A model generated the notes under the pieces. That model was not told the DNA's origin and searched no databases. It was given only the letters and a program-made list of their open reading frames with translations. A program made the position numbers and the translations under genes. This document shows positions 31,180 through 45,372 of a stretch of DNA of 64,000 nt, piece after piece (position 1 is the first letter of the stretch; the number at the start of each line of letters is the position of its first letter). The stretch is taken from assembly GCF_000018365.1 (NCBI RefSeq), contig NC_011529.1:1736001-1800000 (forward strand), in the 5' to 3' direction. The stretch comes from Thermococcus onnurineus NA1. Its GTDB lineage: Archaea; Methanobacteriota_B; Thermococci; Thermococcales; Thermococcaceae.

Positions 31180-33162
31180 TCATCCCCCGTTGGTCTTAAA
31201 ATCATTTCCAATCTCAACGAACCTACCCTCAGCTTTCACGAACTCGATGAACCTTTTGTAAGTTGAATGAACGCTTAAAGTTTCGGAATCCCCAACCACT
31301 ATCAGCTTCCTCTTTGCCCTCGTCAGCGAGACGTTTAATCTTCTCAAATCCTTCAGGAAGCCAACCTCGCCCCTCTCGTTTGAGCGCACGAAGGAGAGGA
31401 TTATGACTTCCTTTTCCCTGCCCTGATAGCCATCCACGGTTCTGACCTCTATCTCCTCGGGAACGAGTGAGCTGATTAAGTCACGCTGGTCGTCGTACGG
31501 CGTTATCACGCCAATCCACTCTGGCTTGACGCCCATCTCGAGGAGCTTCTCAACGGTCTCGGCCACTATCCTCGCCTCAAGTGGGTTCTCCCTGCTTTCG
31601 CTCCCGCGCCTCTGCCTCTCCCACTTCTCCGGGTGTTTGGATGTGTCTATAAAAACGAGCACATTGCCCGCTTTCAGGATTTCATCCCATGGTTCCCCAA
31701 AATTGGGGCACTTAATTCCGAGATCTGTGAGAGTGATGCACTTAACTCCGGGTGCTGCCTTTATTTTCCCATCGTAGAACTCCCGGTTCGGAAATTCCAT
31801 CAGCCTCTCGTTCATCCTGTACTGAACGGTCAGCATAGCACTGTCCTCAGGATAGCGCTCAATCAGTCCCTCAAAAAGTGTCCTGCTGAGCTCCCGCGCC
31901 TTCTCACTCAGTATTGTCGGCGGCAGCTGCCTGTGGTCGCCCGCTAAAACGAAGCGTTTGGCACGGTTTATAGGTATTAGCACGCTTGGTATGGTCGCCT
32001 GGGTCGCCTCATCTATGATGGCCACATCGTAGTCTGCGTAGCCGATTACCTCCAGCCCGGCCGAAGCGTTGGTGGTGAGAACAACGTCTGCCTCCTGAAT
32101 TATCTCTCTGGCTATTCTCTCCTCCAGCTTTCTGGCGTCGTCGAAGGCCTTCTGGACGAGCTTGTTGAGCTTTATCCAGTTGGCCATCTCCCTGATGAGT
32201 TTTGCCGGTACCCCTCTCGTGCCCCGCCTCCTCCTCGACAACGCAAGGATTTCAATGTCGGTCAACCCGCGCCTGTACTTCGGCAGGGGCTTTGTGAAGG
32301 TGTCACGCTTTTCCGCGAGGTTCTGTGCCGTGACTCGGAGTTCTCTCAGCTCGCTGTATAGGTCATGCTTGGTCATGAGATATGCAAGAGTTGTCTCGTG
32401 GAGGTGTTTGGAAACGCGGCTTGGGTGTCCAATCCGGACGATTTTCAGGCCCGATTCTGCTAATCGCTCAACGAGGTTGTCCACAGCCACGTTGCTCTCT
32501 GCCGTTGCAAGAACCTTGTGGCCGCGCTCCACTTCCTGCCTTATCAGCTCGGCCAGCGTTCTGGTTTTGCCCGTTCCAAAAGGCCCGTGGATGAGGAAGA
32601 AGTTGGGGCTCCCGAGTGCCTGGCTGATTGCTCTCCTCTGACTCGCGTTCAGGCTTTTATCGATCGGATCAAACTCGACCGGCTCACTTTCTTCCGGATC
32701 CCTTAGGCCGAGATAGAACTCCAGTGCCCTCTTTCCGCCCTCATGGAGGTGTTCAAGGTTTTCAATCCAGCGCTTGAATGTGATATCGTTGGCGTAGAGG
32801 TCTAGCCTTATCCCCTTAAGCGCCCATTCCGGGACAGTTTCAAGGGCGACTGTAATGAATCGCTTCCCCTTCTCTACGACGGTTCCAACTAGATCGCTCT
32901 TCAGGGGATCGCGTTTGCTGATAACCACCAAATCCCCTACGCCTATTTCCGTCTTAATTTCCCGATCTCGACCGTATTTTACCAGGAAGTAGCCGAGTTC
33001 TTCCCCGATTATTTTGCCGTTCAGGCCAAGGATTGCTCTGCCTACCTTCTCACGCTCTCTGCCGCTTAGCCTTTTCATCTCTGCCCTCATGGCTTCTATC
33101 TCGGCCTTTCTCTCGTACTCTACGAGAACCTTGAGGTGGTTGATGAACTTCTCAAGCTCCAT
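31180..33162 (-). CDS. UPF1/IGHMBP2-type superfamily 1 helicase
   Basis: 660 residues from the ATG at 33162, chosen over an upstream TTG because GGAG lies before it. Helicase motifs are complete: I ([16 protein letters not shown]), II ([12 protein letters not shown]), III ([14 protein letters not shown]), IV-V ([37 protein letters not shown]) and VI ([15 protein letters not shown]). An N-terminal beta-barrel region like that of IGHMBP2 spans roughly residues 80-160. It unwinds DNA or RNA with 5'-3' polarity in known members. A C/D box sRNA is encoded 48 bases upstream of the start. Confidence 0.93.
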
Positions 33163-33209
33163 TCTCGCTCCCAAGCGGAGGAAAGAAGAACGTCTTAAAA
33201 GGTTGAGGG

Positions 33210-33267
33210 TTGGTCAGCCCATGCGAGTTTCCTCACCGCTCGGACGAAACTTCCCTCATCATCCCAA
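33210..33267 (-). ncRNA. C/D box sRNA guiding 2'-O-methylation
   Basis: Read on the minus strand: flanking TTGG, box C GATGATGA (33256-33263), guide GGGAAGTTTCGT, box D' CCGA, 3-base spacer, box C' GTGAGGA, guide AACTCGCATGGG, box D CTGA (33214-33217), flanking CCAA. The TTGG/CCAA ends can pair to close the kink-turn. Twelve-base guides and a total core of 50 bases match archaeal C/D sRNAs exactly. These RNAs direct L7Ae-Nop5-fibrillarin to methylate rRNA or tRNA five bases upstream of D or D'. The targets were not determined. Confidence 0.75.
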
Positions 33268-33294
33268 GAAGAGTAGAGAAAGGGGGTTAAAAAG

Positions 33295-33585
33295 CTAAGC
33301 CTTCTCAAAGGAAATTACTGCGATGATATCCCTCTGGAAGGATTTCACTGCCTTCATGTGCCTTTCTTCAACGCGACCGCAGCAGGCGACGCGGTTGTAG
33401 AATATCTCCAGCTCCCTGAGTAGATCCGCGAGCTCCCTCTTGGTGCTTTCACTGTACCCGTTGTTCAAAAGCTTGCCCCTCAGAAACGGCATCACTTCCG
33501 ACGGCCTTCCGAGGGCCGCCCAGAAAAGGCCTTCCTTCAGTATTTCACCTAAAATCTCCTCAAAACTAAAGCTCCTCACATTCAA
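33295..33585 (-). CDS. hypothetical protein
   Basis: 96 codons from a TTG (MNVRSFSFEEILGEILKEGLFWAALGR...); a GTG two codons later is equally possible. The protein looks helical, with FLRGKLLNNGYSESTKRELADLLRELEIFYNRVACCGRVEERHMKAVKSFQRDIIAVI, and has an adjacent Cys-Cys pair. No family recognised. Amino-acid use is normal for the genome, so it is probably a genuine lineage-specific gene. Confidence 0.6.
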   Translation of the reverse strand: MNVRSFSFEEILGEILKEGLFWAALGRPSEVMPFLRGKLLNNGYSESTKRELADLLRELEIFYNRVACCGRVEERHMKAVKSFQRDIIAVISFEKA

Positions 33586-35557: not shown

Positions 35558-36958
35558 ATGACCAAGATTGGAATCATCGGCGATGGTGCAGCTGGTTTAA
35601 CGGCTGCCATAGCCCTGGCGAAGAGAGGTTTTGACGTCACGGTCATAGGTAAGGGGTTCAAAAACACCAACTCATATTTAGCCCAGGCTGGAATAGCCTT
35701 CTCGATTCTTGAGGGAGATTCACCTAGGGCTCACTTCCTCGACACGGTTAGGGCTGGCAAGTACCTCAACGATGAGGAAGTAGTCTGGAGCGTTGTGAGC
35801 AAAGCTCCCGAAGCGTATGATTTTCTAATCTTGCTCGGCCTTGAGTTCGAGGCCAACGAGACGGAGGGGGGACACTCCTTCCACAGGGTCTTCACGATAA
35901 GGAACGAGACCGGGAAGCACCTGATGAGGAGTCTCTATATTGCCGCGAGAGAGCATGGGGTAAACTTCGTTGAAGGTCTTGCCGAAGAGCTCGCGGTTAG
36001 AGACGGTATCGCCTACGGCGTCTTTCTCGATGGGGAGCTGCTGAAGTTCGACGCTACCCTTCTGGCCACGGGCGGTTTCGCCTCGCTGTTCAAGTACACC
36101 GCCGGCTCGCCCCTCAACCTGGGGACGCTGATAGGCGATGCCGTTATGAAAGGTGCTCCCGCGAGAGAGCTGGAGTTCGTCCAGTTTCATCCCACGGGCT
36201 TCATCGGAAAGGAGGGTGTCAGGCTCATCAGCGAGGCCGTCAGGGGAGCCGGGGCCAGGCTCGTGACGGATGACGGCGAGCGCTTCGTGAACGAGCTCTC
36301 CACGAGGGACATCGTGGCGAGGGCCATATACCGTCAGATGCAGGCTGGAAAGAGAGTCTATCTCGATGCAACTGGCATAGAGGACTTTAAACGTAATTTC
36401 CCTCAGATATATGCCTTCCTCATCAGGGAGGGCATAGATCCCTCCAAAGACCTTATTCCAGTCTTTCCAATAGCTCACTACACCATCGGCGGAGTAGCGG
36501 TCGACCCCTGGTATCGTACGGGCATCAAAAACCTATATGTTGCTGGGGAAGCCATGAGCAACGGCTTCCACGGTGCGAACAGGCTGGCGAGCAACTCCCT
36601 GCTGGAGTGCATTGTGAGCGGACTTGAAGTTGCCAGAACCCTATCGAGAGATAGGCCGAGGCTTGGCGAGGTTCCAGAGGTTCCATACACCTTTGACTCT
36701 CTGGGTGATGTTGAAGCCCTCAGGGAAATACTGTGGGAGCACGCTGGAATAGTAAGGACTGCCGAAGGCCTGAGGTTTGGCTTGGAGAAGCTTAACGGGA
36801 TCGAGGTTGATGGAAGGCTTAAGCTGCTCGCGAGGGGTGTTCTTGAGTGCGCTTTGGCAAGGGAGGAGAGCAGGGGGAGCCACTACCGCGAGGACTTTCC
36901 CGTCATGAGGAAGGAGTTTGAGAGGCCGAGCTTCTTTGATGGGAGGTGCAGGCTCTGA
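35558..36958 (+). CDS. nadB: L-aspartate oxidase
   Basis: 466 residues from the ATG at 35558 after GGGGGAG. GIIGDGAAGLTAAIALAKRG is the FAD dinucleotide-binding loop; SYLAQAGIA, EGGHSFHRVF, LATGGF, QFHPTGF and AGEAMSNGFHGANRLASNSLLECI are the succinate dehydrogenase-type flavoprotein motifs of NadB. It oxidises aspartate to iminoaspartate for NAD synthesis. At about 466 residues it lacks the long C-terminal helical extension of bacterial NadB, as is usual in Thermococcales. Iminoaspartate passes to NadA, two genes on. Confidence 0.94.
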   Translation: MTKIGIIGDGAAGLTAAIALAKRGFDVTVIGKGFKNTNSYLAQAGIAFSILEGDSPRAHFLDTVRAGKYLNDEEVVWSVVSKAPEAYDFLILLGLEFEANETEGGHSFHRVFTIRNETGKHLMRSLYIAAREHGVNFVEGLAEELAVRDGIAYGVFLDGELLKFDATLLATGGFASLFKYTAGSPLNLGTLIGDAVMKGAPARELEFVQFHPTGFIGKEGVRLISEAVRGAGARLVTDDGERFVNELSTRDIVARAIYRQMQAGKRVYLDATGIEDFKRNFPQIYAFLIREGIDPSKDLIPVFPIAHYTIGGVAVDPWYRTGIKNLYVAGEAMSNGFHGANRLASNSLLECIVSGLEVARTLSRDRPRLGEVPEVPYTFDSLGDVEALREILWEHAGIVRTAEGLRFGLEKLNGIEVDGRLKLLARGVLECALAREESRGSHYREDFPVMRKEFERPSFFDGRCRL

Positions 36959-44750: not shown

Positions 44751-45317
44751 ATGATAATCATAATGGATAACGGCGGCCAGTACGTCCACAGGATCTGGCG
44801 CACTCTTCGCTACCTCGGCGTTGAGGCGAAGATAATCCCAAACACAACGCCTCTCGAGGAGATAAAGGCAATGAAGCCGAAGGGTATAATCTTCTCCGGC
44901 GGCCCGGACATCGAGAAGACCGGCAACTGCAGTGCTATACTCGATCACTACGACGAGTTCAACGTGCCTATCCTCGGTATCTGCCTCGGCCACCAGCTCA
45001 TAGCGAAGTACTTCGGCGGTAAAGTCGGCAGAGGCGAGAAGGCCGAGTACAGCCTCGTAGAGATTGAGATACTCGAGGAGAACGACATATTCAGGGGACT
45101 TCCCAAGAGACTCAAAGTCTGGGAAAGCCATATGGATGAGGTGAAAGAGCTCCCGCCCGGTTTCAAACTTCTGGCAAAGAGCGAGACCTGTCCGATCGAG
45201 GCTATGAAGCACGAGGAATTGCCAATCTACGGCGTTCAGTTCCATCCAGAGGTCGCCCACACCGAGATGGGGAGCGACGTTTACCGCAACTTTGCTCAGC
45301 TCTGCGGAGAGCTCTAA
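44751..45317 (+). CDS. guaAA: GMP synthase subunit A (glutamine amidotransferase)
   Basis: 188 residues starting [22 protein letters not shown], with the nucleophile Cys in [14 protein letters not shown] and the HPE of [12 protein letters not shown]. It produces ammonia for subunit B. GAGGTGA lies before the ATG. The last base of the stop codon touches a C/D box sRNA on the opposite strand. Confidence 0.97.
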
Positions 45318-45372
45318 TCAGCTAGTCGATCCTCTCCTCATCTTTTTATCGGCAACGGGTTTAGTCATCATC
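45318..45372 (-). ncRNA. C/D box sRNA
   Basis: On the minus strand: box C GATGATGA (45365-45372), guide CTAAACCCGTTG, box D' CCGA, spacer, box C' ATGAGGA, guide GAGGATCGACTAG, box D CTGA (45318-45321); 55 bases in all. The D' and C' variants (CCGA, TGAGGA) are the same as in the sRNA at 33210-33267. There is no obvious closing stem beyond the boxes, so it is slightly less sure. It begins right after the guaAA stop, antisense to that gene's downstream region. Confidence 0.6.

Follow-up and report, generated by a model that had tools for sequence, protein, structure and literature searches.

The window analysed here, a stretch of 64,000 nucleotides from Thermococcus onnurineus NA1, encodes a 58-nt archaeal C/D box sRNA on its minus strand, from 33267 to 33210. 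This kind of RNA is well known. We propose that the present member is a dual guide, in which the D guide directs 2'-O-methylation of U52 and the D' guide that of A350 in 16S rRNA, and which could clamp the base of the helix formed by nt 48-54 and 340-345, which we take to be h5; we put the probability of this reading at roughly 0.88. The gene and its surroundings comprise the following elements:

33210..33267, minus: C/D box sRNA gene, 58-nt core (from sequence and family-wide conservation)
33256..33262, minus: C box ATGATGA (99.6% mean column identity, 69 loci)
33244..33255, minus: D' guide GGGAAGTTTCGT (predicted target 16S A350, E. coli A364)
33240..33243, minus: D' box CCGA (from sequence and alignment)
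33230..33237, minus: C' box GGTGAGGA (from sequence and alignment)
33218..33229, minus: D guide AACTCGCATGGG (predicted target 16S U52, E. coli U56)
33214..33217, minus: D box CTGA (100% column identity, 69 aligned loci)
33287..33293, minus: TATA-like box TTTTTAA, presumed sRNA promoter, located 20-26 nt ahead of the 5' end
33195..33201, minus: TATA-like box CTTTTAA between the sRNA and the helicase gene, presumed separate promoter of the latter
31180..33162, minus: neighbouring helicase gene (Pfam AAA_11 and AAA_12), separate from the sRNA, its conserved start probably the ATG at 33162

Read from 33267 to 33210, the minus strand gives TTGGG-ATGATGA-GGGAAGTTTCGT-CCGA-GC-GGTGAGGA-AACTCGCATGGG-CTGA-CCAA, so that the core runs in the order closing stem, C, D' guide, D', C', D guide, D, closing stem. 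The four boxes, the two 12-base guides and the TTGG/CCAA stem announced by the preliminary description thus lie exactly where it had placed them. The C and D boxes are canonical (the consensus of C being RTGATGA), and D' (CCGA) and C' (GTGAGGA) each deviate from the consensus by one base. The guides between C and D' and between C' and D agree in length with the approximately 10-12 nt expected of the class, and the closing stem, complete in T. onnurineus NA1, would be able to complete the terminal k-turn that the class calls for; in an alignment of 28 sequences its inner two G-C pairs persist in almost every row, unlike the outer two. Two genes of the same orientation as the sRNA, 132 bases apart, flank it, of which the upstream one is an open reading frame of 96 amino acids that has no Pfam match and ends at 33295.

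The claim that the boxes are too regular to be due to chance holds, since a strict four-box pattern matches once in the 64-kb window, at the sRNA itself, and in 0 of 200 windows simulated with a first-order Markov model; the stronger evidence, however, is conservation. The single-strand folding of the sRNA is unremarkable (z -1.0), which could be taken to indicate a degenerate or accidental C/D-like sequence devoid of function. The function of C/D sRNAs does not depend on a stable fold of their own, and unremarkable folding is to be expected of them; as the boxes and guides are conserved across six genera, and the pattern was never met in the simulated windows, we give this explanation practically no credence.

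A DNA search detected the sRNA in 86 of 94 genomes of Thermococcaceae, representing all six of the six genera. A sequence-only model built from 28 orthologues likewise recovered 86 genomes, with one copy in each, and, under stricter filters that may lose weak matches, found nothing in 21 searched genomes of the phylum outside the family. Seven of the eight family genomes without the sRNA are only 53-88% complete, and the eighth (G049) is 96% complete and split into 90 contigs. A second match in one genome (G041:C2, locus L107) is sR60, a different sRNA, and was dropped as an orthologue. At 951-1094 of L107, in one thermococcal genome, the Rfam sRNAs sR1 and sR60 are separated by about 30 nt.

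The alignment of the family took in 69 of the 86 copies, all but one of the 70 loci fetched. Over these loci the mean column identity of the D guide amounts to 94% and that of the D' guide to 88%; the C and D boxes reach 99.6% and 100%, respectively, compared with 56% over the 59 bases upstream and 47% over the 60 bases downstream. Together with the sites that the two guides find in 16S rRNA at the fifth base, this conservation and the boxes bear out the identification of the locus as a C/D box sRNA.

The D guide provides the clearer of the two target assignments. Its bases N2-N11 pair with CCAUGCGAGU in 16S rRNA, which places U52 (E. coli U56, numbered by means of the shared CATGC motif) opposite the fifth base from D, and these pairs are all Watson-Crick in 14 of 14 genomes. 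When the D guide was shuffled, only 2 of 200 permutations scored as well against the organism's own 16S and 23S rRNA, and the best site in any tRNA scores 7.6 versus 10.0 at the 16S site (44 of 44 tRNA genes, read on the correct strand). The counts of targets rest on 14 genomes from five of the six genera, i.e. T. onnurineus NA1 and 13 relatives, the 16S and 23S rRNAs having been sought in 15 relatives and found in all except G001 and G093. The scans covered 16S, 23S and the 44 tRNA genes. Sulfolobus acidocaldarius sR1 reportedly has 16S U52 as its target, which may be the site of the D guide too; the literature searched showed no passage to this effect.

The D' guide is less straightforward. 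The search for fifth-base complements in 16S, 23S and tRNAs that the preliminary description had suggested returned 16S sites for both guides, each in the geometry of the class, with the target at the fifth base from D or D'. In 13 of the 14 genomes, with one tie, A350 (E. coli A364) leads all such (N+5) sites of the D' guide in 16S and 23S together, and it ranks second in the remaining one. The best tRNA site scores 7.2, versus 7.8 at the 16S site (again 44 of 44 tRNA genes on the correct strand). In a single genome this complementarity is not significant by itself, as it is matched by 105 of 200 shuffled guides. The duplex at A350 carries one A-C mismatch, the position of which depends on the two middle bases of the guide: they read AG in 40 loci (those of the window's genus), which puts the mismatch at N8, and GA in 29 (those of other genera), which puts it at N7; GG, which would pair perfectly, occurs in 0 of 69. 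This split follows the genus and may therefore go back to a single event. What lends weight to A350 is that the bases invariant in 69 of 69 loci, N2-N6 and N9-N11, coincide with those that pair at this site, N1 and N12 being free to drift.

It could be argued that the D guide acts on U52 as proposed and that the D' guide acts elsewhere, on 23S A2043 (E. coli A1937), 16S A551 (A608), 16S A856 (A908) or some other site. Both the AG and the GA forms of the guide pair at A2043 if one base is bulged; in P. abyssi the energy at A608 nearly equals that at A364 (-11.7 versus -11.9 kcal/mol); a GA-type guide placed on the 16S rRNA of the window's genome prefers A551 (9.0 versus 7.5); and, when the N+5 rule is set aside, a 23S site near nt 2860 slightly outranks A350 by duplex energy in the organism's own genome (-13.2 versus -13.1 kcal/mol). 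On the other hand, A364 is energetically the most favourable of the four named sites in all 8 genomes for which energies were compared, and it leads by the N+5 score in nearly all genomes, as described above. Moreover, N9 of the guide is A in 69 of 69 loci, which pairs at A364 and in the unbulged register mismatches A1937. Taking into account also the modification data below, we consider a different target of the D' guide unlikely, and A350 remains the preferred assignment.

Independent information comes from the ribosome structure of P. abyssi. The accessible part of Coureux et al. (PMC7005279) gives 44 modified positions in the 16S rRNA of this species, among which the ribose-methylated residues are ac4Cm250, Am373 and Cm1376, Am373 being the sole Am. 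The numbering of that work was fitted to genome G004, which we infer to be P. abyssi, and the bases agree at 44 of 44 listed positions. The D' target of the G004 copy of the sRNA is A373 in this numbering, that is, the listed Am373; by a rough estimate, a best 16S site would coincide by chance with any of the three ribose methyls in the list about once in 500 cases. Of the three 16S candidates for the D' guide, A364 alone appears as Am in the P. abyssi listing, where A574 (A608) and A879 (A908) are unlisted; the table does not include 23S rRNA. U64, the counterpart of the D target in P. abyssi, is absent from Tables 2 and 3 of PMC7005279.

We found no guide named for Am373 in the portion of PMC7005279 at hand, which raises small RNA guides for acetylations, and the words sRNA and fibrillarin are absent from its main text. 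The label given there to Am373, "hairpin loop h13", conflicts with the Rfam structure, which has this residue in a single-stranded stretch ahead of the next helix. As regards other sources, no methylation list was found in the accessible parts of PMC7196836 or PMC13324472, and that of PMC11698992 is, according to the part seen, in its supplements. In P. abyssi the stretch targeted by the D' guide, 16S nt 373-379 (E. coli 364-370), carries both Am373 and ac4C379 in the modification list, so that the guide duplex also takes in an acetylated residue.

The Rfam structure of archaeal 16S rRNA has nt 48-50 and 52-54 paired with nt 340-345, and the D' site begins at nt 346-347 (the T. onnurineus NA1 16S numbering equals that of the Rfam model plus 5 in this region). 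The helix that follows the single-stranded stretch with Am373 in this structure is presumably h15. U52 and A350, 298 nt apart in sequence, therefore abut at helix h5 in the fold, which makes a chaperone role of the sRNA plausible. We envisage that the sRNA, once expressed, would presumably be bound by L7Ae, Nop5 and fibrillarin; that its D guide would pair with 16S nt 49-58 on the 5' strand of h5 and direct 2'-O-methylation of U52; and that its D' guide would pair with nt 346-356, starting just past the 3' strand of h5, and direct methylation of A350. With targets on both sides of h5, one particle could hold both sides of its base during assembly, and after methylation in T. onnurineus NA1 both would be released to fold.

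This scenario resembles one already in the literature. Long-range dual guides have been proposed as folding chaperones in the part of Dennis et al. (PMC4644070) that was accessible, where sR15 and sR17 of Nanoarchaeum equitans likewise have two guides whose 16S sites, more than 100 nt apart, meet at one helix. The helices differ, being h28 and h30 for the N. equitans sRNAs as described in that part and h5 (U52, A350) in our case, and no Thermococcales appear there among the seven species considered. One might go further and regard the whole family as the hitherto unassigned guide for Am373 (E. coli A364) in Thermococcales 16S rRNA and as a chaperone of the 5' domain that clamps h5, in which the A-C mismatch is kept on purpose to facilitate release; this stronger version is doubtful in our opinion.

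The helicase gene downstream, the product of which we take to be a UPF1-like SF1 enzyme, starts so close to the sRNA that the two had been suspected of sharing regulation. The sRNA and the helicase share a strand, with 48 nt between the sRNA and the downstream ATG, and k-turns near 5' ends can be cis-regulatory, as stated in the available part of Jager et al. (PMC4247193); hence the element could conceivably belong to the 5' leader of the helicase mRNA, where it would bind L7Ae and regulate the helicase instead of serving as a guide. Such proximity (a gap of at most 63 nt) characterises, however, 32 of 40 loci from the window's genus, a sample that is not random since 30 of them were the best matches of the DNA search, and is seen nowhere among the 29 loci from other genera, in which 0.7-1.8 kb downstream was examined, whereas the sRNA is present family-wide. 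As for the other loci of the window's genus, the helicase is 153-1007 nt away in four and absent from the examined stretch in four.

The guides, moreover, are conserved far above the flanks, and a TATA-like box of its own lies between the sRNA and the helicase; by eye, a similar box follows the sRNA in most of the loci next to the helicase. A TATA-like word also starts 25-30 nt upstream of the sRNA in 67 of 69 loci, a count made with hand-chosen words and without a null. A leader element is accordingly very improbable, and the idea of shared regulation was abandoned on grounds of synteny and of the separate TATA-like boxes. The pattern of adjacency and the two consensus-like boxes suggest that the neighbourhood is lineage-specific and that the guide RNA and the helicase likely have separate promoters, as judged from sequence.

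Two other sites in the window resemble C/D box sRNAs. The first, a second likely member of the class, lies at 45318-45371 on the minus strand (ATGATGA CTAAACCCGTTG CCGA ... GATGAGGA ... CTGA), just after the end of a convergent open reading frame (44751-45317, plus), presumably GMP-synthase-like. It matches 13 of 41 genomes searched, T. onnurineus NA1 included, which are 13 of the 25 of the same genus, and corresponds to no Rfam family at threshold. The other, at 36905-36958 on the plus strand, is a loose match that overlaps the 3' end of an open reading frame that we assume to be NadB-like, with the stop codon inside the D box; it is weak because its C box is ATGAGGA.

As to whether the sRNA is new, the preliminary description had called it unlisted, which is correct with respect to Rfam: no family reaches its threshold at the locus itself or at 16 orthologous loci in other genomes (17 sources were checked, one of which turned out to be the unrelated sR60 locus). 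The best Rfam family, RF01136 (sR28), shares the box architecture and the length and scores 32.2 bits here and 28.3 bits in G004, below its gathering score of 39 bits; its guides align poorly, and the boxes carry most of the match. RF00095 (snoPyro_CD), the generic C/D sRNA of Pyrococcus, shares the C/D architecture and scores 27.3 and 20.2 bits, respectively, below its gathering score of 45 bits, and its guides differ. Membership in either family was rejected, as the scores are under threshold both here and in the G004 orthologue.

With respect to published catalogues the term is probably too strong. The accessible parts of the respective papers report 59 C/D guide genes in P. abyssi (PMC3124441) and 61 putative C/D sRNAs in T. 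kodakarensis (PMC9014305), so that the orthologues in these two species have probably been catalogued already. In the article texts and listings searched, we found no published name for the sRNA, no match to the letters of the D guide and no statement that links the family to Am373. The circular-RNA table of T. kodakarensis (PMC9014305) has no entry at the orthologue (approximately 254,603 in G024). The same paper, in the part seen, ties circular RNAs to closing stems of at least three pairs, and the absence of a circle fits the stem of the T. kodakarensis orthologue, which has 2 bp.

The results of our analysis thus describe an sRNA family that extends throughout the Thermococcaceae genera searched and escapes Rfam 15 at the thresholds set there. 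They provide a concrete and testable link between a guide RNA and Am373 of P. abyssi, a ribose methylation described in a ribosome structure, and they would add a conserved long-range dual guide, acting at helix h5, to the proposed class of sRNA chaperones.
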